Positions 13,485 through 31,607 of a DNA stretch of 31,623 nt are shown piece by piece. This stretch comes from a virus. The position numbers and the translations under genes are program-made. The DNA lies in IMG/VR virus record IMGVR_UViG_3300035701_000175, positions 1 to 31,623 of that record; one strand, given 5' to 3'. How positions within the stretch are numbered: position 1 is the first letter of the stretch; every line of letters begins with the position of its first letter. Under the pieces are notes generated by a model. That model made no database searches and was not told where the DNA came from. It was given only the letters and a program-made list of their open reading frames with translations.

Positions 13485-14170
13485 TTTTTCACCTTAACCT
13501 TTTCTTTCTTCTTTAAATATTTTGCGAACTCAGGGATTATATCTGCCCAATATTCCTTGGTAGACATCATCTTTTCAAGTGAACGTCTAGATCTTATAAC
13601 TTCGTTTTCAATCTTATCTATATTCATTAAAGTTTTATTTAATGATTTAATTGTTCCTGTTAATCCTCTATCTATTTCTAGTAAATCTCTCTTTGAAGGA
13701 AGATCTGAAAATATATTTTCGGCAGCAGTAATCCAATCTTCGTCATCTATCGTAGGTTTGTCAATATAAATCACCAACCATCCGCCTGATCTTCCTTCTT
13801 GATACCATTTTTCTATGGGATACTTCGTTTCAAGTTCATCCATAAAATTGCTCAGCTGTAATTGTATTTCTTCCCAATACAAGTGGTCAAATGACTCTGG
13901 ATATTCTCCACCAAAAAAATCGCTTAACTCTGATGGAAGACTTAAACTTCTCATTTTAATATCTATATCAAAAGAACCCTCATCTCCATGACCACCGGAC
14001 AAGGCTTCTTCCATATCTTCTACAAGTTGCCTTGCTGTATCTATTTTTGGTTCCATAACGTCGTATATTGGCTTTAGTTCACCAAGTTTTTTATCTTTGG
14101 CAACTTCATGTTCTGCTGAAGACATAGGTTTGAACAATGTTTCTTGTTCTAATAATTTACTGAGTTTCAC
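13481..14170 (-). CDS. Motif-bearing protein with LFKPM element, 229 aa
   Basis: GTG start (14170) with AGAGGA 8 nt upstream, overlapping the acyl carrier gene by 14 nt. The N-terminus MKLSKLLEQE leads directly into TLFKPMSSAEHE, a diverged copy of the D-[IL]-F-x-P-M motif found in the right-hand genes (Thr replaces Asp). Residues 50-130 contain an acidic GDEGSFDIDIKM strand and a WYQEGRSGGWLVIYID segment, possibly an alpha/beta domain. The C-terminal 70 residues are helical and basic at the end. No known family. The leader and motif place it in the same putative packaged group. Confidence 0.65.
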   Translation of the reverse strand: MKLSKLLEQETLFKPMSSAEHEVAKDKKLGELKPIYDVMEPKIDTARQLVEDMEEALSGGHGDEGSFDIDIKMRSLSLPSELSDFFGGEYPESFDHLYWEEIQLQLSNFMDELETKYPIEKWYQEGRSGGWLVIYIDKPTIDDEDWITAAENIFSDLPSKRDLLEIDRGLTGTIKSLNKTLMNIDKIENEVIRSRRSLEKMMSTKEYWADIIPEFAKYLKKKEKVKVKK

Positions 14171-14414
14171 CTATTTTTCCTCTGACGCACTCGACTATTT
14201 CACTTACTGTTTTAATCTTCTCAACTTCTTGATCTTCTATACTTATACTGAATACTTCTTCTAGTTTTAATACTATTGTTACAGCGTCTAATGAGTCTGT
14301 TCCTAAATCATCTTGAAGATTGTCTTCAATATTAATTTTATGATCAAGCATGCCTAAGCTTCCGTACAATTCTTCTCCAATAATATTTATAATCTTTTCT
14401 TCTAATTTACCCAT
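14157..14414 (-). CDS. acp: Acyl carrier protein
   Basis: 85 aa with ATG at 14414 (a TTG extension exists but is not preferred). Clear ACP: four-helix pattern, acidic, with the phosphopantetheine attachment serine Ser41 in the classic DLGTDSLDAV motif, followed by helix II LKLEEVFSISIED and a conserved ...IKTVSEIVECV helix. Bacterial AcpP carries growing acyl chains and also binds non-biosynthetic partners. The phage copy is embedded between structural-type genes with 8-nt and 14-nt overlaps, and no other fatty-acid gene is visible here. It may recruit a host enzyme, supply lipid modification or act as a protein adaptor; this is not resolved by sequence. Confidence 0.93.
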   Translation of the reverse strand: MGKLEEKIINIIGEELYGSLGMLDHKINIEDNLQDDLGTDSLDAVTIVLKLEEVFSISIEDQEVEKIKTVSEIVECVRGKIGETQ

Positions 14415-17400
14415 TTTGCTGTAAACCAACTTGAGTCGTAGGATTTGGCGGAGTTTGTGGATTTGCTGGCATCTTCTTCAGATATCCAGGCTGGGCGAAT
14501 GCTGCTTCTTTACCATCGTCAAATTTCACCTTTACTCCAGAAGCGTCAATAGCAATTACGACTCCCTGCTTATTGTTATAACTCGACATCACATCTTGAG
14601 TAGGAACTCCGCTAACTGATATTCTGTCATTAGCTTGGACAGGTATAGATTGTTCTTCAATTGCTATATTTAATGCTTCTTTTATTGATTTGCTCCAAGT
14701 CCTATCATATTCTTTTTGAGCTTTCTTATAGTCTGATGTTGATTTTGCTTTATCATATACTTTATTCACTTTTTTTGCTCTCTTTCTAATTTCTTTGGAA
14801 GTAAGTTCCTGCTCCCTAAATAATCCTATTTCTTCGTCTTTAAAATTAAATTCCGCTTGTTTCTCGGCTTTCCTCTTAGGAGGTCTTGTAAACGTTTTAT
14901 CTGCCCATTTTTTAGTAATATCGTAGGCTTTATCCGAAGACTTTGTCCTATCGTAAATTGTCTTATAATACCCTTGAATTTTCTTTTTGATTGTAGCTCT
15001 TTCTTCGTCTGAAAGGCCTGCCACATTTATAAAGTCGTCTACTAGAGGTTCAACTCCCTTATCGCTTCCGTCAGAAAGCTCTTCTCTGACTACCTGCCCT
15101 CCTGCTAATTTAGGAGGTTCTATACCCATTCCAGAAACAGGAGCTTGAGGATTAAAATCTTCGTCTTTTACTTCTTTTCCCACAGCTCTTAAAGCTCTTC
15201 TAAGATCAAAATCAGAAAATCTTCCGAATGCTTTATTCTTTACATAAACCAAAATTTTGGAAGAATGTTCCCAGTCATTTGTCGATATGTCGTCTAACTT
15301 AGCTCCAAAATTTATCAGTTTCTGGATGAATGAAAAAGCGTTCTTTTGAAGACTTGTATCTACATCGTTAATTGATTTAATTGTATACTTATTTGATGAC
15401 CATTTATCCTGGAACTTCCTTTTCAAATTGTCCAAGGTTTCTTTCTTCATTTCTTTTATCATTTCTGGCTTAAATCCTGTAAGCTTCTTGAAATCTTGTA
15501 AAAGAGATTCATTTACTTTACTTTCATCAACGTGCAATTCAGAAACGTAATCTCCAACCTCAGATTCAAATTGTTTCCATCTTTCAGGTCCTAAAAACTG
15601 CTTGAATTCTTCTGCAGCATATTCCTTGTCATCTTCAAGAGAAGTTATAGAATCTATCGTATAATCTTCTATATAATAATTACCCTGATGCTGGGTACCA
15701 AACTCATGAGAAAAACTTGTATCTTCATAACCTGTCGAGATGTCTGTTATTATAACGATATACTCTTTTCCTTCAAATTTTACGTCTACGTCTCTATCAT
15801 TATCCGAAGGAGGATAACCATGCTTCTCGTAATAATCTTCTTCTCTATATTCCATAGAATCTTCTTCAGTTTCAGAAATAGGAAAGCTCATTTTAACTTT
15901 TTCCTTGCTTAAATAATATTTTTTGTAGCTTTGCATAACGTATTCTAAAGCTTGTTTCCATTTATCTATCGTATCTAAAAGATTAAATTTCTTTACAACA
16001 TGAGGCATAGGAGAGCTGCCGTAGTATCCATGAGACAATTTCCTTATGTATCCGTTACTGTAAATTGTATAATCGTGCTTCTTATATTTTAATGCTACTT
16101 GATTTCTTCTCTTCTGTAAATCTGACGTTACGTCTTTAAACCCCCAACTAATCATAGCCTTATATTCTGGAAGATTTATAATTTCTTCACGGGAAACTGT
16201 AATAGGAAATTTCTTTTTAAATGCTTCTTTTCTTGCTACATCTATTCCTGTCCTTTCTTCTCTTCCCATCGGTTTGAATATAGAACTTTCGCTCCAACCG
16301 CACTCAGGACATTCTCCATTTTTAAGTTTTACTTCGCAATCTGGGCATTCGGCAGTAGAAACAGCTTCTGCAAGTTGGTCTGGCGTCTCTTCTTTATTAT
16401 ATTCAGCTTCAGCAGCCTCAGCTTGTTTTATCAATCTATTCATAATCATTTTACCTGAGCCAGAATCAGCAAGAACACTTTTTATCTCGTCAGGAGATAA
16501 TTTAACAGCATATCTCTGAACTAAAGGAGTTAAATGTTGTTTCTCTGGAGGAATGTGAGAAATAAACTTTTTGAATACTCCAGGGCCAGCGAGCATATCA
16601 CGTGTCTCGTTACCTAATTCTTCTCCTCCCATTTCAGGTTCATGTTCTTTATATAGAGAAAGCCACTCATATATTCCTTTGACAACCTCATGAACTAGAT
16701 AGGGGAACGTAACAGCACGAGCTTTAATGACGTATGTATCACCTTCAGGTTTTACTTCCTCTGAGCCAGCTTTAGCTTCACCAGAAGCAGCAGCCATCTT
16801 TTCAATACCGTCAGGAGTAATCCAATATCCTATTTGAGCAAGAGAAGCAAGAATCCCGTAAATTGTCGGGAGTGTCTTATCTATGCCTTCAAGCTTTTCT
16901 TTAATCATATTGAATAAATATAGTTTATGTGAAGCTCCGCCTGTAGTTAATAAATTAGCGAAACGTCTTTGAATTGCTTCGACAGAAGTAGCTTCAATAT
17001 CAGACATTTGATCGAAAATATCTTGGTTAATCTCTTCAGCTTGAGAAAGTTCACCTTCCTCAGGTTCATTTGAAACATGTGCGGATAAATCAGGTTCTTC
17101 TAATTTTGCGTCTATCTTTAAATCACCTGAAGTTATCGCTTTTTCTACCATCTTGAATTCTGCAGATTGTAATGGAAGCATAACAGCCCATTCTTCAAAA
17201 TGACGCTTGTGCCTCTGTTCGATACTTCTAGCTTTCTGTAACGACTGCATCAATAATTGAATTAAAGAAGGAAGATTACTTTCTTGGACCTTCATCCCGG
17301 TATAAGACTCTATTTTTGAGATCAAGTCTGTATACTCGTTGCTAGTTATCTTAGTCAAATAAGATTCTTCTGTATCGCTAAGTTGAGGCAGTAATTTATT

Positions 17401-17472
17401 AAGAGTCGGATCACCTTTTTTAATCCAGTCTAATTTTGAAGGATGGACGATATCTGGTTTAAACTCTGCCAT
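14407..17472 (-). CDS. Large multidomain protein with zinc ribbon and motif copy, 1021 aa
   Basis: Residues 1-350 are mainly helical, with FPYLVHEVVKGIYEWLSLY near 256-274. Residues 376-391 form a zinc ribbon (CPDC ... CPEC). Immediately after, at 397-402, is a diverged motif copy SIFKPMGREE (Ser for Asp). Residues 430-520 hold INLPEYKAMISWGF and YTIYSNGYIRKLS ... VVKKFNLLDT, a domain shared with the 393-aa protein at 25017-26198. Residues 560-660 look alpha/beta, 665-770 helical, 820-940 highly basic and coiled, and 945-1000 an SH3-like beta segment (NDRISVSGV ... GVKVKFDDGKEAAF). AGGAG lies 8 nt before the ATG. Function unknown; probably a virion-associated multidomain protein. Confidence 0.65.
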   Translation of the reverse strand: MAEFKPDIVHPSKLDWIKKGDPTLNKLLPQLSDTEESYLTKITSNEYTDLISKIESYTGMKVQESNLPSLIQLLMQSLQKARSIEQRHKRHFEEWAVMLPLQSAEFKMVEKAITSGDLKIDAKLEEPDLSAHVSNEPEEGELSQAEEINQDIFDQMSDIEATSVEAIQRRFANLLTTGGASHKLYLFNMIKEKLEGIDKTLPTIYGILASLAQIGYWITPDGIEKMAAASGEAKAGSEEVKPEGDTYVIKARAVTFPYLVHEVVKGIYEWLSLYKEHEPEMGGEELGNETRDMLAGPGVFKKFISHIPPEKQHLTPLVQRYAVKLSPDEIKSVLADSGSGKMIMNRLIKQAEAAEAEYNKEETPDQLAEAVSTAECPDCEVKLKNGECPECGWSESSIFKPMGREERTGIDVARKEAFKKKFPITVSREEIINLPEYKAMISWGFKDVTSDLQKRRNQVALKYKKHDYTIYSNGYIRKLSHGYYGSSPMPHVVKKFNLLDTIDKWKQALEYVMQSYKKYYLSKEKVKMSFPISETEEDSMEYREEDYYEKHGYPPSDNDRDVDVKFEGKEYIVIITDISTGYEDTSFSHEFGTQHQGNYYIEDYTIDSITSLEDDKEYAAEEFKQFLGPERWKQFESEVGDYVSELHVDESKVNESLLQDFKKLTGFKPEMIKEMKKETLDNLKRKFQDKWSSNKYTIKSINDVDTSLQKNAFSFIQKLINFGAKLDDISTNDWEHSSKILVYVKNKAFGRFSDFDLRRALRAVGKEVKDEDFNPQAPVSGMGIEPPKLAGGQVVREELSDGSDKGVEPLVDDFINVAGLSDEERATIKKKIQGYYKTIYDRTKSSDKAYDITKKWADKTFTRPPKRKAEKQAEFNFKDEEIGLFREQELTSKEIRKRAKKVNKVYDKAKSTSDYKKAQKEYDRTWSKSIKEALNIAIEEQSIPVQANDRISVSGVPTQDVMSSYNNKQGVVIAIDASGVKVKFDDGKEAAFAQPGYLKKMPANPQTPPNPTTQVGLQQNG

Positions 17473-18604
17473 TTGTACGGCTCCTCATAAAAAGGTCTAT
17501 ATCTCTTTTTGCTTTTGGTTTAGGCTGAATTCCAGGAGTTGGACTTAAAGGAGATCTTTTAGGTTTAGTAGTAGGCTCAGTTGTAGGTTCTGTTTCGGTT
17601 CCAGGTTCTGCTGTAGTCGTCTGTTCCTCTTCTATATCATCGTCTCCTTCTTCCCCTACTTCGTCTGCTCCAATTATTTCATTTGCAAGTTGTTTAATAA
17701 TTTCTGCTTTATCTCCTAAATTAATCCCTTTCTCGTCTGCCCAACTAAGAACTAAATCGTCATCTATCGGATCTAATCTACCTGACTCGTCGTAATAGTC
17801 TACTAATTTTCCTGCTAAGGCGTAATCTTCGTCAGATTGTTCTAATTTAATTCCTTTTTCCTCTAGCAATCTAGTTATCGATTCTAATTTAACTTTCTCA
17901 GGAAGCAAGTCTGCATATTGAGGATCTTTGGTAATTCGCTTTCTTAATTTACCTAAAGACCTGCTAATCATTTTGTTTATTCCCATCCTAGTCATTCCTG
18001 TAATCATCGAAATTTCTTCTACAGAAAGAGGTTGATTTTCTGAAAGTTTCTTAGCGATCGTTATAATTTTCAAATCTCTTGTATTAGGAACATAATCTGG
18101 ATTATTAAAGTACCTTTCAATCCTATCAAGCTCCTTGTTAATATTTAATGCTTTGTCGAATCCTTTAGTAGTTAAAAAGTCTTCTTTAATCCCAGAAAGA
18201 TTTTTGAAATCTGGCAAAATAGATTCAGGAACTCCAAAATTTTTCATTTTCTTTTCTCCCAATTTTTCTTTTTGCGGAACAGGCATAGCAAAATCTATTG
18301 ATTCATCTCGATAAGAGACAGGATAATCAAGTCCATGTTCATCGATAAAATCTTCAGCTGCTTCTCTAGTCGAAAAATAACGAGGTTCTTGTCTAGTTTC
18401 ATCTGCACTCGTTGCGATCCAAGCTCTGAAAGCAAAGTCTCCATCTTCAAGAGGCTCATTCGTATCGAAATATTCATATTGTCCTGCTGAATCATAACCT
18501 ATTTGAACTTCTTCTATATCGTATTTTTTACGTCTTTCTTTATCTTTTTTTTCAGCAGATTTTAATTCATTACCTTTCATAGGCTTAAAAATATCTTCTT
18601 TCAC
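17459..18604 (-). CDS. Motif-bearing HTH-like protein with Thr/Pro tail, 381 aa
   Basis: GTG start at 18604 in a TAAGTG junction, with GGGGAG 9 nt upstream. The protein opens directly with MKEDIFKPMKGNELKSAEKK, one intact copy of the recurring motif at residues 4-9. Residues 35-110 form a small domain with an EPRYFSTREAAEDFIDEHG segment. Residues 165-225 contain an HTH-like stretch (LSVEEISMITGMTRMGINKM) preceded by DYVPNTRDLKIITIAKKL; the same arrangement recurs in the 885-aa protein encoded just upstream. Residues 320-365 are an acidic then Thr/Glu/Pro-rich linker. DNA binding is suggested by the HTH-like spacing but not proven. Confidence 0.65.
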   Translation of the reverse strand: MKEDIFKPMKGNELKSAEKKDKERRKKYDIEEVQIGYDSAGQYEYFDTNEPLEDGDFAFRAWIATSADETRQEPRYFSTREAAEDFIDEHGLDYPVSYRDESIDFAMPVPQKEKLGEKKMKNFGVPESILPDFKNLSGIKEDFLTTKGFDKALNINKELDRIERYFNNPDYVPNTRDLKIITIAKKLSENQPLSVEEISMITGMTRMGINKMISRSLGKLRKRITKDPQYADLLPEKVKLESITRLLEEKGIKLEQSDEDYALAGKLVDYYDESGRLDPIDDDLVLSWADEKGINLGDKAEIIKQLANEIIGADEVGEEGDDDIEEEQTTTAEPGTETEPTTEPTTKPKRSPLSPTPGIQPKPKAKRDIDLFMRSRTNGRV

Positions 18605-21300: not shown

Positions 21301-23301
21301 TTAATAGATATTTAGTATATAATCTTTTATCGCGTCTATATCTTCTATGTCTATGCTGTTCTCAATAATCCAATCAACTGTCTTCTGTATAATATCTCCG
21401 ACTTCTTTAGAAGGTTTCTCTATTCCTCTCAGTTCCATAACCCATTTACCGTTAACTACCTTCCTTATTGCTTCTAACGATTTCTTACCTTCATACTCCT
21501 TAGTTAACTGTTCAATCTTATCCATAAGAGCCTTCCATTCTTCTGGATCGAACAAGTGCATTCTAGCTGCTGAATCTGCATAAGCCACATTTTTCAATAC
21601 TTCCCAATGATCGTGTTTTATCAGATTAAGAACCTTGTTATTCGACATGTGCATCATATCAGGAATCTTCATGTGGTTTACTGTAGAAAATATTAAAGCT
21701 TCCCTTGTCTTGTTGTCCATCTTTAATCTGTCGGCTATCTGATTTATGACCTCTACGCCTTCCTCGGCATGGTTTATATAAGAAATCTTATCTCCTTCTT
21801 TCTTGTGAGTCCTGGGCTTTCCTACGTCATGCAGCAATATAGCCAGGTTGATTAGAGGATCTTTAATTGTATTCTTCTTCAACGCTTCCATGGTATGTTG
21901 AAGAACCCCACCCTCTGGATGGTATTCTGGAGAATGCTCATATTTTTCCATTTCCATAACTTCAGGAAGGATATGCTGTAGAAGACCAGTATCCTTTAAT
22001 ATCTGAAGAGCATAAGCGAATCTATCTCCTGATTGCTTGGCCATTCCTATAATCTCTTTCATTATCCTTTCAGGAGCGATATTCTTTATCTTCTCAGAAT
22101 GAGCTGACATTGCTGCCTTCGTCTCAGGATGTATTTCATACCCCATTCTAGAAGCAAATCTTGCAGCCCTCAGCATTCTTAGATAATCTTCTCCAAATCT
22201 CTTGTGAGGGTCTCCAACAGTCCTGAGCATCTTGTTCTTTATATCTCCCATCCCTGAGAAGTGATCGATGATATTACCTCTCTGGTCTAATCCCATGGCG
22301 TTGATTGTAAAATCTCTTCTTTCTACGTCAGTCTCGAAGCTTACTCCTATATCTACTTTCTCGGGGCGTCTTCCGTCAAGATATGCTCCGTCTGATCTGA
22401 ACTGTGCTACTTCAAATGTATGGCCTGCATACTTTACTCCAATTATTCCGAACGTTTCAGCCTTTCCTATATCGTAAGTCTCAAACATCTTTTGGATTTC
22501 TGCTATAGGAACATTTGTAGCTATATCAACGTCATCTGGATCTTTTTCTCCAGTAACTATATCTCTCACAGCTCCGCCTACGATATAAGCTTTTCCTTTC
22601 GTATTTAACTTCTCTAATATCTCTATTGAAGCTTTAATCATAGGATTTCTATTCACGTAACCTTCCCAGTCTGAAACTGCTTCTTCATTTAAAATGCATT
22701 CTCTCATTTGCGGTAGCTCTATTCCGTATTGGCCTAAATTAAGTTTGTTTATTACTTCCTCGGCTTTATTCCTTCCCCAACCGTAGGCTATATCTAAAAT
22801 CAGGTCCTTTAATTTATCTATAGAAAGATTTCTTATTGTACCGACTTCAAATTTTATATTGTTTGAAAGAGATGTTATTTCCTTTATTTTATTGTCGTAT
22901 TCTGATTTTGAAATCTCGTCGTTACCCATAGGGTGGAATAAGTCTTCATTAGTAATCTGATTATAATTAAAATCTCCGTTGACTATCAAAAGTGTATACA
23001 GTTGTAGATAAGTGTCTACATTATATACTTTACCTTTATATGTAATCTTATTGAATTTATGGAGCAACCTTAATAAAGCGCTTCTTATATTCCTGCTTCT
23101 AATCTTGGCTTTATATTCAGCGGTATCTTTAGGGAACCACACCTCAAAAGTGTGCTTTGGATATTTCTGCTCAGGATCAGTAACAACTTCTGGCTCAGAG
23201 ACAGGCTTGCCTTTAGTAAACTGGGCAAACATCTTCTCCATGTCGTCTACCGCCATCTCAAAAAGTAAATTAATCTTCTTTATTAATCTGTCTGTCTTCA
23301 T
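21301..23301 (-). CDS. cca: CCA-adding tRNA nucleotidyltransferase with 220-residue N-terminal extension
   Basis: The catalytic part starts near residue 222. It has the class II nucleotidyltransferase signature GGAVRDIVTG with DVD (Asp257, Asp259), RRDFTINAMGLD (328-339), EDYLRMLRAARF (371-382), then an HD phosphohydrolase-type domain (LHDVGK at 490-495, His511). Such enzymes build or repair the 3'-CCA of tRNAs; the HD domain gives phosphatase/phosphodiesterase activity in some bacterial forms. Usual length is about 400 aa; here it is 666. The extension begins with a basic helix ending NLLFE and contains a diverged motif copy NEDLFHPMGNDE (119-130), linking the enzyme to the neighbouring motif proteins. 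The ATG follows the upstream TAG directly, without a clear ribosome site. Confidence 0.94.
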   Translation of the reverse strand: MKTDRLIKKINLLFEMAVDDMEKMFAQFTKGKPVSEPEVVTDPEQKYPKHTFEVWFPKDTAEYKAKIRSRNIRSALLRLLHKFNKITYKGKVYNVDTYLQLYTLLIVNGDFNYNQITNEDLFHPMGNDEISKSEYDNKIKEITSLSNNIKFEVGTIRNLSIDKLKDLILDIAYGWGRNKAEEVINKLNLGQYGIELPQMRECILNEEAVSDWEGYVNRNPMIKASIEILEKLNTKGKAYIVGGAVRDIVTGEKDPDDVDIATNVPIAEIQKMFETYDIGKAETFGIIGVKYAGHTFEVAQFRSDGAYLDGRRPEKVDIGVSFETDVERRDFTINAMGLDQRGNIIDHFSGMGDIKNKMLRTVGDPHKRFGEDYLRMLRAARFASRMGYEIHPETKAAMSAHSEKIKNIAPERIMKEIIGMAKQSGDRFAYALQILKDTGLLQHILPEVMEMEKYEHSPEYHPEGGVLQHTMEALKKNTIKDPLINLAILLHDVGKPRTHKKEGDKISYINHAEEGVEVINQIADRLKMDNKTREALIFSTVNHMKIPDMMHMSNNKVLNLIKHDHWEVLKNVAYADSAARMHLFDPEEWKALMDKIEQLTKEYEGKKSLEAIRKVVNGKWVMELRGIEKPSKEVGDIIQKTVDWIIENSIDIEDIDAIKDYILNIY

Positions 23302-24399
23302 CTAATCTGGGTTATAACCATCATCATCATCAATATGCTTTACAGCAATTTTTATTGCTTTGTCTATTATATTTAATGCTCTTTGTTTGCTGACATCATT
23401 AAACTTCCTTTCATCATCACCTCGTATTTCTTCGCCTCTAAATTGGAAACATACGACGAGATGGGAGCGGCCTTCAATCCAAACGTTATTTTTCTTTTCC
23501 CAAGCGTCGAATAGCCCTTGTCTTTGGAGTCTTTTCCACCAATCTGATCCTTGCCTTCCGTTATATAACGCTTCGCCCACTTTATTATTTAATAAAACAT
23601 CAACGTATATATTTCTTACAGAATCACCTTCATATTTTAATATCTTATATTCTCCAAGTTTGCTGTTTATATCTTTTTTTTCTCTAGAAGACATCGGTTT
23701 AAATATGTCTTCATTTAAAAATCTTCCTAGACTATTAGAAAAAAGTTGGTTGACAACATTGAAAAATGTTTTGCTCCAAGGTTTATCTTGTATTCCAAGT
23801 TCTTTAACCTTTTCTTTTAAAGGTTTTAAACCAAGATAATTTGAATATCTGTTGTATCTAATTAATAAATTGCAGATATCCATAGATCTGTCTGCTACGT
23901 CAGTCTGATACGCGTTTCTATCCAATTCGTCAATAAGGTCCTTTATTTCTTCATCACCAGCCCAAATTTTCCTTCTTGCGACTTCTACATCTGCAGTTAT
24001 TCTTTCTTCGGATCCCATCGGTTTGAATATATCTTCTGCAAGTTGTTTTGCCATCGATACTATATCTTCTATAATTTTCTCTGCTTGCTCTCTAGTAAAA
24101 TTAGCATTAAATTTAAACCAGAAATAAGTCATTATATTGTCAACATCTCCAAACCTCATCCATATAAGACCATTTCCTTTATACTTTTTATATATTGCTT
24201 CCTTCACCATTATATCTTGGAGCCTGTCTCCTATCGTGCGAGTGAACCTTACCTTTAGGAACAGACTTCCGTCTCTTTCGTTACCGTAATCGACAACCCT
24301 AAAATGCTTCACACGCTTCTCTGCTTCTTCCCTTTCCTTAGAACCCATGGGTTGGAACAAGTCTTCCCATAATCTTTCTACCTTTAGTTGTAGTTTCAT
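23302..24399 (-). CDS. Three-module motif protein, 365 aa
   Basis: Three motif copies at residues 13 (DLFQPMGSKE), 123 (DIFKPMGSEE) and 231 (DIFKPMSSRE) divide the protein into modules of about 110, 108 and 135 residues, each preceded by hydrophobic-x-Glu (LWE, LAE, LNE). Modules 1 and 3 resemble each other (strand of FRVVDYGNE / YKILKYEGD type, a GLIW/GLFD turn, aromatic strands FWFKF / VVCFQF, then a C-terminal helix). Module 2 is helical and resembles the 105-aa protein encoded next to it. ATGA overlap with the upstream gene; TAG end abuts the CCA enzyme ATG. No database family recognised. Confidence 0.75.
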   Translation of the reverse strand: MKLQLKVERLWEDLFQPMGSKEREEAEKRVKHFRVVDYGNERDGSLFLKVRFTRTIGDRLQDIMVKEAIYKKYKGNGLIWMRFGDVDNIMTYFWFKFNANFTREQAEKIIEDIVSMAKQLAEDIFKPMGSEERITADVEVARRKIWAGDEEIKDLIDELDRNAYQTDVADRSMDICNLLIRYNRYSNYLGLKPLKEKVKELGIQDKPWSKTFFNVVNQLFSNSLGRFLNEDIFKPMSSREKKDINSKLGEYKILKYEGDSVRNIYVDVLLNNKVGEALYNGRQGSDWWKRLQRQGLFDAWEKKNNVWIEGRSHLVVCFQFRGEEIRGDDERKFNDVSKQRALNIIDKAIKIAVKHIDDDDGYNPD

Positions 24400-24713
24400 A
24401 ATCCCAAGTCAAACCCGTGTATTTGCTGCTCAGACCACATCTGAAGTTCTGGTATATTGAATTCTTTCATTAATTTCTTTACTTGCTTATATCCAAATTT
24501 CCTTGCCACTCTCTCAAGTATCCAAGCAGCAAATCTTTTTGTTTCGGTGCTGGCATACTCGTGACCTTCTGGAACTCTAATAGGTTCTAATTCCTTCTTA
24601 AAATCATCTAACTCTTTCTTCCTCAATTCAATATTTGTTCTATTCTGTTCAGGGCTAGACATCGGCTTGAATATGTCTTCCAACATTCTGTCTAACTCTG
24701 ATTTTAATTTCAT
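24396..24713 (-). CDS. Single-module motif protein, 105 aa
   Basis: MKLKSELDRMLE then DIFKPMSSPEQ from residue 13. This is the simplest example of the family: leader helix, hydrophobic-x-Glu, motif, one helical module. The module (FAAWILERVARKFGYKQVKKLMKEFNI ... MWSEQ) parallels the middle module of the 365-aa protein (NYLGLKPLKEKVKELGI ... PWSK). ATGA overlaps on both sides suggest translational coupling with the membrane protein upstream. Function unknown. Confidence 0.72.
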   Translation of the reverse strand: MKLKSELDRMLEDIFKPMSSPEQNRTNIELRKKELDDFKKELEPIRVPEGHEYASTETKRFAAWILERVARKFGYKQVKKLMKEFNIPELQMWSEQQIHGFDLGL

Positions 24714-25006
24714 TTAAACATCTTCATCCCTAAGTGTATAATCAACGCTGTCCACATCAAGGCCATTGATGCTAGTATAGCGATTGCCTTTACCTTGCTT
24801 TTTTCTGCATAGGCCCAGAATTGCTGGGATACTGTCTTACCAGTAAACTTGACGTATAAAACCTCTGTCAACCCAAATATCAAGTTGAATGCTAAGAATA
24901 CATAAAACAACGGCCACATCTGCAATACTGCCATTAATACCATGGGAAGAAACATACATAGTATAAATATTATTTCCCCTACTGAAGTTCCACCTTTATT
25001 ATTCAT
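24710..25006 (-). CDS. Three-helix membrane protein, 98 aa
   Basis: Hydrophobic segments at about 9-28 (VGEIIFILCMFLPMVLMAVL), 30-48 (MWPLFYVFLAFNLIFGLTE) and 72-93 (AIAILASMALMWTALIIHLG) predict three membrane helices, with a basic loop (KFTGKTV ... EKSKVK) between the second and third. This is one of the best ribosome sites in the right half (AAGGAG, 6 nt from ATG). Topology could suit a holin or other envelope protein, but neither size nor sequence proves it. It lacks the recurring leader and motif of its neighbours, so it is not part of that protein family. Confidence 0.75.
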   Translation of the reverse strand: MNNKGGTSVGEIIFILCMFLPMVLMAVLQMWPLFYVFLAFNLIFGLTEVLYVKFTGKTVSQQFWAYAEKSKVKAIAILASMALMWTALIIHLGMKMFK

Positions 25007-25016
25007 GTTTTTCTCC

Positions 25017-26198
25017 TTACCATCCTAATTCTTTTAATCTCTTTTTTTGCTCTTTATTAGGGACATCACTTTTTTTAATCCTGCTGCTATATAATCTGAA
25101 AGGATCCCCCCAAGCCTGTCTAATCTCGTTATTAACCCATATATTATAATGTTCTGTGCTATAAGTACTGTTTACAAGTTTAGTTGTAGAATGAATACCC
25201 AAATATTTGAGCTTATCCTCTATAACCTTTACCCAATAATCTGAAGGTTTATCGCTTAATTTAATAATTCTCCAATAATCAGTACCGATATCTTTTTCAA
25301 GTTTCCATCCCATAGATTTGAGAAAATCTCTCATAACTTTTATTTGTTCTGGAGACAACGTTCCTTTATGACTTGGAAAATACAGCCAAACGTCATTCAA
25401 AAAGTTTTTATCTATTTCTGATTTTTCTACGTCAGACATCGGCTTGAAGATGTCTTCTGTCATCACGTTAGTCGGATCAAAGAGGAATCTTATTCCTCCA
25501 CGCTTCTTTACGATTTCTGGACTTCTATTCGATAAATTGAAATCTGTTATTAATCTTTTATATTCTGGTAAATTTATTATCTCTTTATAAGAAGGAAGAG
25601 AAGACAAGAAAGCTTTATGTTTTGCATCTTGTTTGGCAATAAACTTTTTATATTCATCATTCTTAGCCTGAACTTTTATTGCCCAAGGAGAATTAGGATA
25701 ATCTTTAGTGAGTGCATCTAACTCTTTTACATCATACTTTCTAGGTTGACGTGGATAGCTGTGATTATCAATATAATTTATCATACTCTCTGCTCTTTTT
25801 TCGCGGTGATATTCTAAACTCGACTCTCTGTCTTCCTCTGTAAGTCTATATCTGTCTCTTAATTCAGGTGATAAACTATTTTCTATATCATTCTTATATC
25901 TTTTATATTTGTTTACTCTCTTGTTAAGATAATCATACAGCCAATTAAACATTATAGAATAATCTTCTATACTTTTCACAGGTTCGAATTTCTTCATTAC
26001 AAAAGGTTGGTGTTTCGTAACGTCTGCTCTAATATAGCCGTTAGAGTAGATTTGATAATATTTGGGCGTTTTAAGCCACTTCATCGCTTCTCTTTTATTT
26101 TCAAAAGATCCAATCGTCTCCACATCCTTTAATTCCTTGCCGCTCATCGGTTGGAAGATGTCTTCAAATAATCTATTTATCTTATATTCTAATTTCAT
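25017..26198 (-). CDS. Two-module motif protein, 393 aa
   Basis: Motif copies at residue 13 (DIFQPMSGKE, after NRLFE) and 249 (DIFKPMSDVE, after VMTE). Module 1 (236 residues) contains YYQIYSNGYIRADV ... FVMKKFEPVKSIEDY and INLPEYKRLITDF. Both elements also occur in the 1021-aa protein, although there their order is reversed. Module 2 has the recurring alpha/beta pattern: strand VWLYFPS, helix ending SMGWKL, aromatic YWRIIKL, then a helix DYWVKVIEDKLKYLGI. It overlaps the upstream gene by 17 nt. Function unknown. Confidence 0.74.
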   Translation of the reverse strand: MKLEYKINRLFEDIFQPMSGKELKDVETIGSFENKREAMKWLKTPKYYQIYSNGYIRADVTKHQPFVMKKFEPVKSIEDYSIMFNWLYDYLNKRVNKYKRYKNDIENSLSPELRDRYRLTEEDRESSLEYHREKRAESMINYIDNHSYPRQPRKYDVKELDALTKDYPNSPWAIKVQAKNDEYKKFIAKQDAKHKAFLSSLPSYKEIINLPEYKRLITDFNLSNRSPEIVKKRGGIRFLFDPTNVMTEDIFKPMSDVEKSEIDKNFLNDVWLYFPSHKGTLSPEQIKVMRDFLKSMGWKLEKDIGTDYWRIIKLSDKPSDYWVKVIEDKLKYLGIHSTTKLVNSTYSTEHYNIWVNNEIRQAWGDPFRLYSSRIKKSDVPNKEQKKRLKELGW

Positions 26199-27138
26199 CT
26201 TTAAGCTTTTTCTCTTTAATATACGTAAATTCTATATTTGTCGGACTAAATTTAAAAAACTCTTGTCTTACTACTGATATTCCCCCTAGCGGAGAAGTTC
26301 TTTGCACATCTTCGAAAGAATTAAATTTTTTTAATATCCCCGTAATTCCGTTAACATAACTCTGCCATTTTGGTATTTTTTTATTTGTAAGTTCATACCA
26401 TACACGGTTTTGCCAAGGATATGTTGGATCTTTTGACTTAATAAAACCGCTATCTATCATAAAAGCGTTGATTGAAGACAGAATACGACTACCAATATAC
26501 GAAGGAACTCCGACTTGAAGTGTTTCAGTTACCTCGAATTTCGCTTCAACGTCCTTCAATTCCCGGCCTTTCATTGGCTTGAATAAGTCCTCAGATACTT
26601 GGCCTGTTATTTTATATTTAGCTAATTTCTTACTTTCATCTTTCTTAACATCTTCTGACAACCATTTCTTTCTGATTTTATCCTTGAACCATCTGAAGAG
26701 TATCCCAAATTTACTATCGTAAGGCCTCTCCGCTTTATAACCTTTAATCATATAACCGGCATGAAAATTATCTCCTTCCCAACCACTTTCATATGTTATC
26801 GGAGGAGCTTCTAATACCCCTAAATCTTTTAATTTTTTTTCTATCGCTCTTAAATATTTCTGAGGATCTTCAAAATGGTCTTTCTTAATATGGTACCAAT
26901 CCCATCCTTGATTCTCTTCCAATTGTGAAAACATTGCTTCAGCCATCCTGAATCCAAGTTTAATTAACAGATCCTGAACAGCCGACCCTACTTTATTGTC
27001 TAAATTGTCCTGAATCCCGACAGTTATTCCTTCTACATATGTAAATTGTGCCTCATATTCCTTATCGGCTTCTGCCTGTTCTGGACCAGACATAGGAGCA
27101 AAAATATCTTCTAATAATCTATCTAAATTAAAATTCAT
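26182..27138 (-). CDS. Two-module motif protein, 318 aa
   Basis: Leader MNFNLDRLLE, then DIFAPMSGPEQ from residue 11, and a second copy DLFKPMKGRE at 184 after QVSE. Both modules follow the same layout: a strand ending in Gly (ITVGIQ / LQVGVP), a helix leading to GF (LIKLGFRM / FMIDSGFIK), Trp/Tyr-rich strands (GWDWYHI / NRVWYEL) and a helix that ends the module core (YLRAIEKKLKDLGV / SYVNGITGILKKF). ACGAGGAAGAG precedes the ATG; ATGA overlap with the upstream hydrolase gene. No known family. Confidence 0.74.
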   Translation of the reverse strand: MNFNLDRLLEDIFAPMSGPEQAEADKEYEAQFTYVEGITVGIQDNLDNKVGSAVQDLLIKLGFRMAEAMFSQLEENQGWDWYHIKKDHFEDPQKYLRAIEKKLKDLGVLEAPPITYESGWEGDNFHAGYMIKGYKAERPYDSKFGILFRWFKDKIRKKWLSEDVKKDESKKLAKYKITGQVSEDLFKPMKGRELKDVEAKFEVTETLQVGVPSYIGSRILSSINAFMIDSGFIKSKDPTYPWQNRVWYELTNKKIPKWQSYVNGITGILKKFNSFEDVQRTSPLGGISVVRQEFFKFSPTNIEFTYIKEKKLKDEIRI

Positions 27139-27866
27139 CTCTTCCTCGTGATCTTTATATACAACTGTACAAGTAGAGCCGGTATAAAAAACAGTATTGG
27201 AGTTATAATCGATATGAATATATAACCAACATACATTAACGTTCTCTTTATCCTATAAACAATTTTACTGTCTTTATCAGGTTCAAGGTATAACGCTACC
27301 TTCTCAAATATCAACTCGTTGCAAAAATCAATTGGCCTTATCTTAGAAGGAGCTCTCTCAAAACAATAGACATTTGCGTACCTCAATCCAGTTGCAATAA
27401 GTTCCGCACAGAAATAGGCATCCTTTACGTTGTAGCATGAATCGTCGGTATCCCTCCCAAGCAAGAAGTGCAGACTATTCGGGAATATAGAATAGAATAT
27501 AAAATAGATAAATGCTCCAAAATCGTATTCTTTTCCTTTTAGATTGGTAAGAACAGTTATAACCTTCTCTACATCTTCAGACTTGGCGAATCTGTGTCTA
27601 AGCACTAAAAAATTGCAATAACAATTTAAATATGATTCTGAAAAACTTGATTCTGTTATACCTTCTGGATTGGCCTCAATAATACGATCGTTACCTAGAT
27701 ATAGAACAGAATGCTCCCAACCCCTATTACCATACCCAACCTTATAGAAATTAGATATTTTGATAATAGGAGTATACCAGGAAGGACTGTCTACTTCATT
27801 AGTAAGTATAATGTCTCCTGGCTTTAATATGTAAGGCAATTGATTTTTTAATATTAGTTGCTGCAT
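27135..27866 (-). CDS. Membrane-anchored YiiX/NlpC-like permuted papain-fold hydrolase, 243 aa
   Basis: Features of the permuted NlpC/P60 (YiiX/YaeF) group: KPGDIILTNE at the start, His52 in WEHSVLYLG, an IIEANPEG element, GKEYDFGAF, and catalytic Cys153 in YFCAELIATG. The His-before-Cys order marks the permuted class, which acts as cysteine hydrolases on amide or ester (peptide or acyl) bonds. Residues 211-237 form a strong membrane helix or helical pair, followed by a basic end. It could act at the envelope during lysis or entry, or modify lipids; the sequence does not decide. No motif leader. AAGGTGG lies 9 nt before the ATG. Confidence 0.82.
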   Translation of the reverse strand: MQQLILKNQLPYILKPGDIILTNEVDSPSWYTPIIKISNFYKVGYGNRGWEHSVLYLGNDRIIEANPEGITESSFSESYLNCYCNFLVLRHRFAKSEDVEKVITVLTNLKGKEYDFGAFIYFIFYSIFPNSLHFLLGRDTDDSCYNVKDAYFCAELIATGLRYANVYCFERAPSKIRPIDFCNELIFEKVALYLEPDKDSKIVYRIKRTLMYVGYIFISIITPILFFIPALLVQLYIKITRKR

Positions 27867-27868
27867 AT

Positions 27869-28111
27869 TTATAAACCACCTTGCCGATATATTCCTCTAC
27901 TTTTCATCGGCTTAAATATATCATCTTTAACCAGTACACTCCTTCTCCAAGTAGAAGCTTCTTTCTCAGCACAATCAGGGCATAATATCCCAGAATAATC
28001 AGACGGCTCTCTAGCTTTGTCCCAAGAAACCCAATTGCCACATTTGGAGCAACTTGATTCAGTTAAACCTTCAAATAATTTATCTATCTTCTGTTTAAGC
28101 CTCATCGTCAT
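27869..28111 (-). CDS. Zinc-ribbon protein with C-terminal motif, 80 aa
   Basis: Leader MTMRLKQKIDKLFE, then a zinc ribbon (Cys21-x-x-Cys24 and Cys44-x-x-Cys47 in ILCPDC), then at residues 64-69 an intact DIFKPM followed by only 11 more residues. The motif here ends the protein rather than opening a module. It may be a truncated or split module string, or evidence that the peptide itself is functional. ATG at 28111 has AAAGGA close by; the third codon ATG is an alternative start with better spacing. It overlaps the upstream gene by 17 nt. Confidence 0.7.
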   Translation of the reverse strand: MTMRLKQKIDKLFEGLTESSCSKCGNWVSWDKAREPSDYSGILCPDCAEKEASTWRRSVLVKDDIFKPMKSRGIYRQGGL

Positions 28112-28433
28112 ATCTTCCTTTAGTAATCATTATAGAATCTCTATGTATTTTTAAATGTTCATACCCAGCCATATAAGCTGCCAAAGAATATCCTGGAGGG
28201 GTGTAGTCTATAAAGAAATGAGGTGAACCATGTCCTCCAAAGTCGACTGGATACTTTATATCAGTTGTCACAAATCCAGCTTTTTGCAATTCATCACGGC
28301 ATTTCTGAAGTATAGTCGTATCCAGATAAGGATACTTCTTGTTTATACCTGCTATTTCAGGTTTTCCCATGGGCTTGAACAGGTCTTCTTTAATCGGTTC
28401 AAACAATTTTTCTATCTTATTTTTTCTTCTCAC
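28095..28433 (-). CDS. Single-module motif protein, 112 aa (GTG start)
   Basis: The frame could be read from a TTG at 28460, but the GTG at 28433 gives MRRKNKIEKLFE, the same leader as its neighbours, with GGGG 6 nt upstream. After PIKE comes DLFKPMGKPEIAGINKKY at residue 17. The module core has a helix ILQKCRDELQKAGF, strand VTTDIKYPVDFGG, HFFIDYTPPG and a last helix. The start lies inside the end of the lipoprotein gene (17-nt overlap). Function unknown. Confidence 0.68.
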   Translation of the reverse strand: MRRKNKIEKLFEPIKEDLFKPMGKPEIAGINKKYPYLDTTILQKCRDELQKAGFVTTDIKYPVDFGGHGSPHFFIDYTPPGYSLAAYMAGYEHLKIHRDSIMITKGRYDDEA

Positions 28434-28581
28434 ATTGATCCCCGTTACATACTGCTCCAAGTCCTAACATAGTCCTCTGAAATATCCCAGAATCTCCACA
28501 TAGTAAATAGTCATATGACGCGCATCCTAACATATTATTTAATAATAAGAGTAAAGCTGCTATCTTTATAATCAATCTCAT
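28417..28581 (-). CDS. Small lipoprotein, 54 aa
   Basis: A short gene easily missed by length cut-offs. ATG 28581 is in an ATGA overlap with the 409-aa gene, with AGAGGAAG about 6 nt upstream. The product opens with a signal peptide (MRLIIKIAALLLLLNNMLGC): a basic residue, a leucine-rich core and a lipobox MLGC, so Cys20 would be lipidated after cleavage. The mature part is about 35 residues with three more cysteines (28, 45, 50) and a KKK end. Phage lipoproteins of this size include Rz1-type outer-membrane spanin subunits and superinfection-exclusion proteins; no Rz partner is seen beside it. It implies a diderm-type host envelope. Confidence 0.75.
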   Translation of the reverse strand: MRLIIKIAALLLLLNNMLGCASYDYLLCGDSGIFQRTMLGLGAVCNGDQCEKKK

Positions 28582-29807
28582 TGTTTCTTCCTCTCTTCTT
28601 TTTTAGCCCCCATAGGCTTGAATATATCTTCTGTCATCTTCCTTCTTTTGTCTCTCCATACCTCTATGGTTACGCGGTCGCTCTTGTCATTCGCCACAAT
28701 ATGCTGCCAAGCGTCGTTTACTTTTGCTTCACCTTGCCAAGGCAAAGTCATTCTATTTATTACTCCTACAAGCCAATGAAGATACTTCGACTTAGCATTT
28801 AAAGTAGACAGGCGGTTAGTAGACGGCTCAGTCTTCTCCCACACGTGGGAAAAATTGCTGAATTTAGGAGTAAATCCATTTTCCTTGAAAGCCTTCCACA
28901 ACTTCTTCCTCTGCTTATCAGTAAACTTATTCTCTATAGATATAGACATTTGAATTGTATCTGTTGTCTCTATCTGCTTATCTGCAAGCTCTTGTTCGGG
29001 TTTAGACATGGGTTTAAATAAATCTTCTTCTATCTGTGTATATTTAACCATATCATTGAACCGTGGCCTTGAAAACCATGATAGTGCCTTAGGAGAAGAC
29101 CATGTAACTATCTTTATAAATCTTTCCTTTTCTCTGTCTACCCACCTTCTACATTTTTCTTTGTCATCTGTCCGTCCAGACCATTCATTAAACCTTTCTT
29201 CAAAAAAATTGTCTATGGCTTCTTTTGGATTGACGTTGTCAACTATCATCTTAGATACCTTCATCAAGAAACTCTCAGGGAATCCTATAGTCGAATCCCA
29301 AAATGTAAAGAAGTTTTTCTTCATATCTTTATATAATTTCGATACTTCGTTATTCTTGTCAAGCTCTTCCCCGCCCATCGGTTTAAATATATCTTCTCTA
29401 ATTACTTCTCTTAAATAGTCTATATAAATTAATCCTTCTCCATAAATTGATTCGTCGCCTGGACCATAATACTTTTTCCACCTGAGCGATACCAGCTGTG
29501 GACGTCCTGGCCTAGATCTCCATTGCTCTTTTACTTCTATCTTTTCTGATTCAAGGAAGCTCGTCATCTTACGTACTTCTTCCATAAAATCTCCAGCAGA
29601 TCCTTTTTTGGCATAATCATAAGCGTAATCTTTTCTTAATTCATAGCCATTTTTCTTCAGATAGCCGTCTATAAACCAGTCAGGTAACGAGTATATGCCT
29701 CCATCTACCTTTATCAGCTCTTCCATTCTCTTGTCTACATCCTTTTGTTCAGGTTCTGACATGGGCTGGAATATATCTTCTAATAATCTGTCTAGATATT
29801 TAATCAT
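28578..29807 (-). CDS. Four-motif modular protein, 409 aa
   Basis: Motif copies start at residues 11 (DIFQPMSEPEQ), 139 (DIFKPMGGEE), 262 (DLFKPMSKPEQ) and 394 (DIFKPMGAKKEE), each preceded by hydrophobic-x-Glu (LLE, IRE, IEE, MTE). Cutting at each would give products of 128, 123, 132 and 16 residues. Module 3 shows the alpha/beta pattern (IQMSISI, FKENGFTP, SHVWEK, YLHWLVGVI); module 2 is more helical. The last copy is a C-terminal stub with no module after it. ATGA overlaps on both sides; the ribosome site is weak. No known family. Confidence 0.75.
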   Translation of the reverse strand: MIKYLDRLLEDIFQPMSEPEQKDVDKRMEELIKVDGGIYSLPDWFIDGYLKKNGYELRKDYAYDYAKKGSAGDFMEEVRKMTSFLESEKIEVKEQWRSRPGRPQLVSLRWKKYYGPGDESIYGEGLIYIDYLREVIREDIFKPMGGEELDKNNEVSKLYKDMKKNFFTFWDSTIGFPESFLMKVSKMIVDNVNPKEAIDNFFEERFNEWSGRTDDKEKCRRWVDREKERFIKIVTWSSPKALSWFSRPRFNDMVKYTQIEEDLFKPMSKPEQELADKQIETTDTIQMSISIENKFTDKQRKKLWKAFKENGFTPKFSNFSHVWEKTEPSTNRLSTLNAKSKYLHWLVGVINRMTLPWQGEAKVNDAWQHIVANDKSDRVTIEVWRDKRRKMTEDIFKPMGAKKEERKKQ

Positions 29808-30673
29808 TTCTTTATCTTTTCCCTGCTAACATTAAGGTATATGATAGTGGATCCTTTATCTCCTGAAACTACTACTCCGAATATATCAGAAGACTTTATA
29901 TCAACTCCTATTCCCTCTAATATGTCGGTAATAAACTTTATGTACTTCAGTTGAGTCTGCCTCTTTGATTCATAGTAATTCTGCACGTATCCTTGCTGGC
30001 CGAAAGGTTGCTTCTTACTTTCTATTTTTTCTCTTTTGTCGTACCAGAAATTTCTATTCAAGTAACCTGCTTCCCTGAATCCGTTAGCTAATAACTTGTC
30101 ATGGAAGCTAGACATTTGTTCCTTGCTTAAGTTATTGGCGGCAGGTATATTAATTGCAATATTATCGACATATGTCATCTGAGAATCTACAATTTCTTGT
30201 TCTGGATCAGACATCGGTTTGAATATATCTTCTGAAAAAATAGCCTTCCTTATTTTATGCAATACTATTCCTATTTCAGGAGATACTACATCGCTGGTTA
30301 TACCAATAGTATAAATATCATCTATGCCGCCTGGATAATAATGGTCTTTAGGAACCTCTCCAGTAAATTCCCAAACTTTCTTCTTAATCCTATCTTTAAT
30401 ATAAGCTAGATCTTTATTCTTAGGATTCTTTAATCCTGATTTATACCATGTCGTCCCTTCACCGCGATGGTCACTCTTAAACCCCTCTGCTGCCAGCATC
30501 TCTATAAGTTTAATCCACATCCCTTTTCTTCTTATACTGTCGTCTAACCCCACATTAAGAGTAGTCTTGAACATTATATCCAATTTCTTCTCTACATTCT
30601 TCTGCTCAGGAGAAGACATTGGAGCAAATATATCTTCCAATAATCTGTCTATATCTTTATATAAAATTTCCAT
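29804..30673 (-). CDS. Two-module motif protein, 289 aa
   Basis: Leader MEILYKDIDRLLE, then DIFAPMSSPEQ from residue 14, and a second copy DIFKPMSDPEQ at 149 after IFSE. Both modules show the family pattern: strand LNVGLDD / IAINIPA, helix to GF (LAAEGFKS / LLANGFRE), aromatic strand TTWYKSG / NFWYDKR, helix LAYIKDRI / YIKFITDIL, then a final strand. The two halves are clearly related to each other and to those in the 409- and 318-aa proteins. It overlaps the upstream gene by 17 nt. Confidence 0.75.
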   Translation of the reverse strand: MEILYKDIDRLLEDIFAPMSSPEQKNVEKKLDIMFKTTLNVGLDDSIRRKGMWIKLIEMLAAEGFKSDHRGEGTTWYKSGLKNPKNKDLAYIKDRIKKKVWEFTGEVPKDHYYPGGIDDIYTIGITSDVVSPEIGIVLHKIRKAIFSEDIFKPMSDPEQEIVDSQMTYVDNIAINIPAANNLSKEQMSSFHDKLLANGFREAGYLNRNFWYDKREKIESKKQPFGQQGYVQNYYESKRQTQLKYIKFITDILEGIGVDIKSSDIFGVVVSGDKGSTIIYLNVSREKIKK

Positions 30674-31607
30674 ATATTGTTACTTCTGTTTGCTGCCACT
30701 TATACCGTTCGTCGATCATAGTAAACATGGCTACGTGTCTACCTTTTATTTTAATTATTTCCAGTTTCATGAATACAGCATCTTTTACTCCAAACTCACC
30801 TTCATATTCTTTAGGCTCAAAGTCTTCTATATCGTTGACAATATCTCCATACGGTTCAGGTGGTAACATTACTTTTACTACAGGGCCTAGATACTGTTCT
30901 ATTCTAGTATACACTTTTGTAAATTCTTCTTTTATTTCTGCTCTCATACTTCCAATATTCCTTCTTCCAGGCATAGATATTTCAGCCCTTGGAACTATAA
31001 TACTCTTAAGTATATTCTTTAATGATACGGTCTTTGCTGATTTAAATTCTTCAGACAAGCCTGAATACAACTTTTCTTCAGAATGTTTCTTTACATCTTC
31101 CAACTCTTCTCCACGCATTGGAGAGAATAGATCTTCTTCCAATCTTATGCCTTTCTTGTTCCTCTGGGTCGTTATAATTATTCTTCTAGGCATTAAAGTT
31201 CCAGGCTCATCAAACTCGACTACTCTCTGCCCCAATCCAGGAGAACTAGAAGCTATATAATCTCTGCTTAATGTAGGAGTCTTCTTAAACCATTTTTTAA
31301 TCGTGACGGCATGTGCGAATCTTATATCTGACAGTATATTCGGATCTTCTGTATACTTTATATCTTTCCTATATAAGGTACTGTCATCATTACCTATGTA
31401 TTTACTTTTAAACCTTTTAAATCCTATTTCTACAAGCTTTTTATCTATTTCAGCCATCTGCTTCCATCCAGTAAAGTTGTCTACTCTTGCCGTCAATATC
31501 ATCTTGAATAGTTTATTAACGTCTGCTTGTTCAGGACCAGACATTGGCCTAAATATGTCTTCTGCCAATCTTAACTCTTTCTTCATTCTGATTTTTTTAG
31601 ATATCAT
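30657..31607 (-). CDS. Two-module motif protein, 316 aa (start uncertain)
   Basis: The frame stays open to the window edge. ATG 31607 is chosen, with ATG 31586 (MKKELRLAE) as an equally good alternative that gives a leader more like the neighbours; neither has a visible ribosome site. Motif copies at residue 17 (DIFRPMSGPEQ, after LAE) and 159 (DLFSPMRGEE, after LEE). Module 1 shows the strand-helix-GF-aromatic layout (ILTARVD, LVEIGFKRF, STLYRKD). Module 2 has a basic helix region and strands (YLGPVVKVML, VFMKLEIIKIKG). Function unknown. Confidence 0.7.
   Translation of the reverse strand: MISKKIRMKKELRLAEDIFRPMSGPEQADVNKLFKMILTARVDNFTGWKQMAEIDKKLVEIGFKRFKSKYIGNDDSTLYRKDIKYTEDPNILSDIRFAHAVTIKKWFKKTPTLSRDYIASSSPGLGQRVVEFDEPGTLMPRRIIITTQRNKKGIRLEEDLFSPMRGEELEDVKKHSEEKLYSGLSEEFKSAKTVSLKNILKSIIVPRAEISMPGRRNIGSMRAEIKEEFTKVYTRIEQYLGPVVKVMLPPEPYGDIVNDIEDFEPKEYEGEFGVKDAVFMKLEIIKIKGRHVAMFTMIDERYKWQQTEVTIYGNFI

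Follow-up and report, generated by a model that had tools for sequence, protein, structure and literature searches.

In bacteriophage T4, the prohead protease gp21 cleaves after L/I-x-E, and the accessible part of one account places the targeting function of the IPIII leader mainly in its N-terminal part, with positions 8 and 10 (P3 and P1) governing processing and Asp at position 10 inhibiting it (PMC9026906). In phage SPN3US, 13 of 14 sites serve to remove N-terminal propeptides, the remaining one being at the protease's own C-terminus, as far as the accessible text goes (PMC10052503). Polyvalent proteins of phages and conjugative elements have been likened by their authors to polyproteins, and in the portion of that paper available here polyprotein-type processing in phages is proposed for peptidase domains within the chain (PMC5512222). 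Here, we describe a related arrangement in the IMG/VR record IMGVR_UViG_3300035701_000175, a complete virus record of 31,623 bases from a T4-like phage (hereafter, the window). A short motif preceded by hydrophobic-x-Glu stands near the start, inside, or near the end of many of its proteins, pointing to a variant of T4 capsid targeting and processing in which some chains may also be cut into several modules.

Searching the window proteins with the strict pattern [ED]D[IL]FxPM, in which P1 is the residue before the core, identified 20 copies, all encoded on the minus strand, as are all the genes discussed here (protease, capsid, motif proteins, and neighbors). Eighteen lie within 23302-31607; the nineteenth is found at 22944 in a protein of 666 amino acids (aa), and the twentieth at 18595, at the start of a 381-aa protein. 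By position, nine copies sit close to an N-terminus, nine occur within the chain, and two belong to C-terminal tails, with just 16-17 residues remaining after them. The original prediction had proposed polyproteins in 23302-31607 that are cut by the phage's own prohead protease before each motif, and its description of the sites holds: P1 is Glu in 19 of the 20 strict copies (one copy more than the 19 then counted), with Asp at 27922 as the exception, and P3 is hydrophobic (LIVMF) in 18/18 copies inside that region. Overall, P3 is hydrophobic in 19/20, with Thr at 22944, compared with 19 of 75 (25%) other Glu-Asp pairs of the window proteins. At this background rate, the full count has a probability of p ~7e-11, and the count for internal and C-terminal copies together (10/11) one of p ~9e-6.

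The residues upstream of the core differ with the location of the copy. Among N-terminal copies, P3 is hydrophobic and P1 is Glu in 9/9, P10 and P6 are each hydrophobic in 7/8, P4 is Arg in 7/8, and P5 is acidic in 6/8; eight of the nine end a leader of 10-25 residues with hydrophobic-x-Glu, and in the 381-aa protein MKE alone precedes the core. In the internal and C-terminal copies (n = 11), upstream conservation is confined to hydrophobic P3 (10/11) and P1 Glu (10/11), with no hydrophobic residue at P2 or P6 and no Arg at P4 (0/11 each). Such a pattern is expected if a leader targets each chain once and internal sites need the cut rule alone. On the prime side, the core reads Asp, I/L, Phe, x, Pro, Met, followed by Glu at P10' in 18/20 copies; the invariance of P1' Asp and of F, P, and M (20/20) is owed partly to the search pattern itself. 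Beyond the copies listed earlier, two degenerate ones were found, TLFKPM near the start of a 229-aa protein and SSIFKPM inside a 1021-aa protein, both lacking hydrophobic-x-Glu directly before the core. The amphipathic character of the N-terminal leaders had likewise not been remarked on: the N-terminal copies likely close a leader like those that target T4 proteins to the capsid, and taking such a leader off would count as conventional processing. Freeing several modules from a single chain would be a step beyond this, and is plausible. The product lengths given in the original prediction are exact, namely 110, 108, and 135 residues for the 365-aa protein, 128, 123, 132, and 16 for the 409-aa protein, and 135 and 141 for the 289-aa protein, after leaders of 12, 10, and 13 residues, respectively.

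The motif genes adjoin the head genes on the same strand. A gp23-type capsid protein, an S77 protease, and a gp20-type portal were detected above cutoffs; the window also encodes a scaffold-like protein (354-1082), a terminase-like protein, and an enzyme that resembles CCA-adding enzymes or polyA polymerases; an Rfam scan of the window gave nothing at gathering thresholds. The previously noted gp21-like protease with intact His and Ser motifs is borne out by its family match and by an alignment of five phages including T4 gp21, in which His69, Ser124, and Ser125 are invariant. The capsid protein carries LLSE/STSSG (a slash marks the cut position) aligned to FLTE/AEIGG of T4, so that LxE is kept at the T4 gp23 cleavage column; Glu60 is invariant in 5/5 aligned phages including T4, with P2 variable and the other three reading LLTE, LLQE, and IVSE. 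In T4, this position is the gp23 cut site.

All-against-all BLAST showed the modules that follow the motif to be mostly unrelated, with several sharing weak similarity, and the same N-terminal signal to be present on several otherwise unrelated proteins. Since the same motif precedes mostly unrelated modules, the tag is transferable. Leaders ending in hydrophobic-x-Glu also begin neighboring proteins that have no N-terminal motif copy (MKLENLLKE/Q, MKIKELLRE/Q, MKIKNKIKKFFSE/E, MKRIIDKLDHLFE/Q, and others). Because a first count (19/32 genes) included motif genes, the enrichment was recounted without them: a leader is present in 12 of 23 such neighbors versus a background of 29% (p 0.017), and one of amphipathic form in 11 of the 23 versus 18% (p 0.001). 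In relatives, leaders occur in 26/46 genes versus 28%, these genes being orthologues and not independent. An acyl carrier protein-like gene in the head cluster (14157-14429, minus strand; NCBIfam E 1e-18, below cutoff) has a possible leader ending in hydrophobic-x-Glu. Inside the array of motif genes, 27135-27866 (minus strand) encodes a protein without the motif that weakly resembles NlpC/P60 or YaeF-like papain-type proteins.

The closest relatives of useful length are two contigs, L007 and L008, with portals 72-74% identical; shorter related contigs (portal up to 100% identical) yielded no motif in motif scans. Both contigs encode, as two distinct proteins of 118 aa and 474 aa, what the 666-aa protein combines on either side of a motif module, and the ILNE/E of this fusion is aligned opposite the leaders of the 474-aa relatives, ILFE/S and MLFE/S. 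In its enzyme part, CCA transferase models score below their cutoffs. The 106-aa DUF5661 protein matches the C-terminal part of longer proteins in L007 and L008 (263 aa and 352 aa), and in each of the three phages hydrophobic-x-Glu stands a short way ahead of the domain (FFSE/E, SIRE/E, and ALRE/E); in L008, an additional motif module with IHE/D has been inserted before the domain. In the 1021-aa protein, relatives of a 378-aa and a 227-aa protein, which are otherwise separate, are combined in one chain. With respect to cut sites at the ends of modules that are separate in relatives, two junctions thus agree and the 1021-aa motif disagrees; the agreeing junctions fit a fuse-and-cut history. 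A further 885-aa open reading frame (ORF) is in one frame with the 381-aa ORF; one TAA codon, placed immediately ahead of GTGAAAGAAGAT (MKE/D; 18604-18607), divides the two. The N-terminal copy of the 381-aa protein may once have been an internal one, made terminal by this stop codon, an origin that would explain why it has no leader. The 365-aa and 666-aa genes are also in one frame, with a stop codon alone between them (23301-23304, minus strand). A CKYG...WC domain and a zinc-finger-like domain, both recognized by eye, turn up in different long proteins from one of the three phages to the next.

The motif is present in L007 and L008 in five copies, with FKPA instead of FxPM; the 229-aa orthologues begin MLE/DIFKPA and MLQIQD/DIFKPA. 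P3 is hydrophobic in 5/5, and P1 is Asp in three and Glu in two, the sole internal copy having Glu. At the extreme N-terminus, the relatives' motif is found as MLE/D, MLQIQD/D, and MTPLND/D. Asp at P1 thus occurs where a cut would release little, which fits cutting in this small, partly orthologous sample divided post hoc; the same copies equally show the core retained where no useful cut exists.

These observations are most readily accommodated by a capsid-targeting dialect of this clade with internal copies, whose modules would be cut apart in the prohead, an explanation to which, taken whole, we give very nearly an even chance. The proteins would be cargo of the phage's prohead core, on which an N-terminal amphipathic helix of ~10-16 residues (MKLxxx-h-[DE]-R-h-h-E) would dock before the gp21-type protease removes the leader after hydrophobic-x-Glu. 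Gene fusion and module insertion would have carried additional signal copies into the interior of longer chains, where the targeting helix would have been lost and the cut rule kept. The protease would then separate the modules inside the prohead, each beginning with DIFxPM(S/G)xxE. Head targeting with leader removal is likely, and leader cleavage itself appears quite probable; cleavage at the internal copies falls slightly short of an even chance, yet accounts for the P3/P1 pattern with the fewest assumptions. Because prime-side conservation is unexplained by cleavage alone, a second role for DIFxPM is likely, presumably in docking or retention. More tentatively, and with doubt outweighing confidence, the chains would be true polyproteins that are brought into the prohead by a single N-terminal tag and cut in trans at hydrophobic-x-Glu/Asp into several retained modules, each with a DIFxPM end that serves docking or ejection. 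Fusing or splitting genes would then be nearly neutral, because a cut at the junction restores separate proteins.

Several results weigh against cutting at the internal copies. The downstream conservation (P1' Asp, F, P, and M in 20/20) goes beyond what a protease reading P3 and P1 needs, and the capsid cut site carries Ser, not Asp, at P1'. P1 is Asp in 3/5 of the relatives' copies, the residue that at this position blocked IPIII processing in T4 (PMC9026906), and the 1021-aa fusion lacks a cut site at its own internal motif. Cutting at hydrophobic-x-Glu would predict depletion of [LI]xE inside modules, which is weak (19 vs. 25.5 expected, P 0.10), and [LIVMF]xE is not depleted (46 vs. 48.3 expected). 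Furthermore, hydrophobic-x-Glu is present in 29% of 20-residue windows, so that single junctions prove little. The original proposal of polyprotein cutting is thus upheld in part: the site pattern matches the gp21 rule, the protease and the conserved capsid LxE are in place, and the junctions in relatives fit; the over-conserved prime side, the Asp-bearing relatives, and the 1021-aa copy do not.

The main rival takes the whole 13-residue hxEDIFxPMSxxE as a linear docking motif for scaffold, capsid, or portal, with the repeats providing multivalent binding and the chains remaining uncut except perhaps for an N-terminal leader. It would account for the prime side being the most conserved part of the element, for the two copies in C-terminal tails, for the 1021-aa copy without a cut site, and for the relatives' copies at the extreme N-terminus, where a cut would free a mere stub and P3 is hydrophobic despite Asp at P1. 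What makes it the less likely explanation in our view is that the internal copies drop all upstream features except the two cut determinants, and that strict copies keep Glu in 18/18 cases where a cut would part a leader or module versus 3/7 elsewhere (p 0.003; p 0.03 with the 1021-aa copy added and orthologues collapsed, the partition being post hoc and the genes related).

The motif might instead be the structural first turn, a helix-loop-helix header, of a repeated domain, the proteins being unprocessed multi-domain chains that arose by ordinary duplication. In keeping with this, the first module of the 318-aa protein was modeled with a helix (5-13), a loop, and a helix (19-31) across the motif followed by a ferredoxin-like fold (predicted local distance difference test score, pLDDT, 68), and several modules share weak similarity; a Foldseek search of the PDB with the modeled module found nothing at E 0.001 or better. 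We consider this explanation improbable, since the motif precedes unrelated modules, sits in two C-terminal tails, and starts the 381-aa protein of different content, and since the P3/P1 pattern is left unexplained. In the model of the 289-aa protein, module 2 is better than module 1 and the junction, which are poor (mean pLDDT 52), so that exposure of the cut point is not readable from it.

Finally, the proteins might not be virion components, the tag serving another complex in the infected cell. The homologue searches leave room for this: neither Pfam nor PHROG gave a significant match to the motif proteins, a weak match to phrog_19243 (E 0.009) spans a motif copy in the 316-aa protein, and relatives of the 409-aa protein were neither found in phage records (tblastn) nor confirmed in viral contigs. 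Searches of viral contigs with the 666-aa protein, module profiles, and a longer motif pattern likewise confirmed no relatives; in tblastn searches of phage records, one motif peptide gave two weak unrelated records and another none; and the 229-aa family profile returned only L007 and L008. Proximity to the head genes, on one strand with them, and the capsid-targeting-type leaders in the same cluster make this last explanation very improbable. Exact DNA matching of EDIFKPM to viral contigs gave four loci (L023-L026), all of which were dropped: L023 and L025 were lone matches, the ORF at L024 was glycosyltransferase-like by eye, and contig G012 lacked an S77 protease and had a portal-like protein that looked different by eye.

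Table 1. Proteins and related features considered in the analysis (window coordinates unless a contig is named; slash, predicted cut)
Feature	Coordinates	Strand	Family or domain match
N-terminal part of gp23-type major capsid protein	1..348	-	PF07068
gp21-type prohead protease (Peptidase_S77), 200 aa, His69 and Ser124/125	1112..1714	-	Pfam PF03420, E 2.5e-19
106-aa DUF5661 protein, leader IKKFFSE/E	13164..13484	-	PF18905, E 1.9e-17
229-aa protein MKLSKLLEQETLFKPM	13481..14170	-	
1021-aa protein, degenerate internal copy SSIFKPMGREE, without cut site	14407..17472	-	
381-aa protein starting MKE/DIFKPM	17459..18604	-	
666-aa fusion: 118-aa homologue, motif module at 119, CCA-adding/polyA-polymerase-like enzyme	21301..23301	-	PolyA_pol, HD domains
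365-aa protein, leader and 3 modules, cut points after 12, 122, 230	23302..24399	-	
105-aa protein, leader and 1 module	24396..24713	-	
393-aa protein, leader and 2 modules, cut points after 12, 248	25017..26198	-	
318-aa protein, leader and 2 modules, cut points after 10, 183	26182..27138	-	
80-aa protein, leader RLKQKIDKLFE/G; C-terminal motif copy with Asp at P1	27869..28111	-	
121-aa protein, leader with KLFE, then IKE/DLFKPM	28095..28460	-	
409-aa protein, leader, 3 modules and 16-aa tail with C-terminal motif copy, cut points after 10, 138, 261, 393	28578..29807	-	
289-aa protein, leader and 2 modules, cut points after 13, 148	29804..30673	-	
316-aa protein, leader and 2 modules, cut points after 16, 158	30657..31607	-	
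Shuffled CKYG...WC / zinc-finger-like domain proteins	window 2679-5357; L007 6043-7521; L008 5914-7503, 11847-15707		
Immuto leader dialect NFDLKKFLVENKLTTNS	L071 8741-23884, L069 1794-2315		

Should the polyprotein explanation be correct, the head-maturation protease would also be a polyprotein-processing enzyme for virion cargo, and free shuffling, fusing, and splitting of head-cargo genes in such phages would be accounted for. The DIFxPM tag and the leader dialects of other large T4-like phages would, in addition, provide a sequence rule for predicting head-packaged proteins among those of no assigned function. Release of several modules by a prohead protease was not found in a literature search by title and abstract start, with subscription papers mostly outside its coverage.

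Other leader dialects are seen in LR756508 and in Flavobacterium phage immuto, which share with the window repeated N-terminal hydrophobic-x-Glu leaders near head genes and differ in having another consensus (MKxxExKLRxIIREEIKxVLxE and NFDLKKFLVENKLTTNS, respectively) and no DIFxPM. In LR756508 (L020, L059-L089), a large leader family is present on many small genes near head genes, with some copies internal or C-terminal. A 15-seed leader profile gave 32 matches at an independent E value of 0.03 or better among 2038 ORFs of at least 50 aa, 25 within the first 25 residues and seven further in; one of these seven comes after an in-frame ATG and is probably an N-terminal copy. The window is therefore not alone in having leader copies at internal and C-terminal positions. 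Between terminase and portal, a 593-aa ORF of LR756508 (L020 17898-19679), presumably intein-interrupted, ends in a leader-bearing domain. The immuto dialect is found at four N-terminal places, with the residues after the presumed cut conserved, as in the window.

Cutting of many head proteins after Glu by a gp21-like protease is known from SPN3US, phiKZ, and 201phi2-1; unlike the system proposed here, release of several retained modules is not described in the accessible text on SPN3US (PMC10052503). Polyvalent proteins would resemble the window chains in having several domains per chain delivered with the DNA. An embedded peptidase domain is typical of them, if not universal, whereas the cutter in the window would be the separate prohead protease, and a Pfam scan at E up to 1 found no peptidase family inside the nine motif proteins of 23302-31607. 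The closest parallel is T4 capsid targeting (IPI, IPII, IPIII, and Alt), with a short N-terminal leader ending in hydrophobic-x-Glu, an S77 protease and T4-like head genes in one genome, and many unrelated cargo proteins. In contrast to T4, the signal in the window is also internal and C-terminal, is followed by the conserved DIFxPM, and accepts V, M, or F at P3, and leader removal is here a prediction. Overall, the system is best regarded as a variant of the known T4 capsid targeting and processing, in which the release of several modules from one chain is partly supported.

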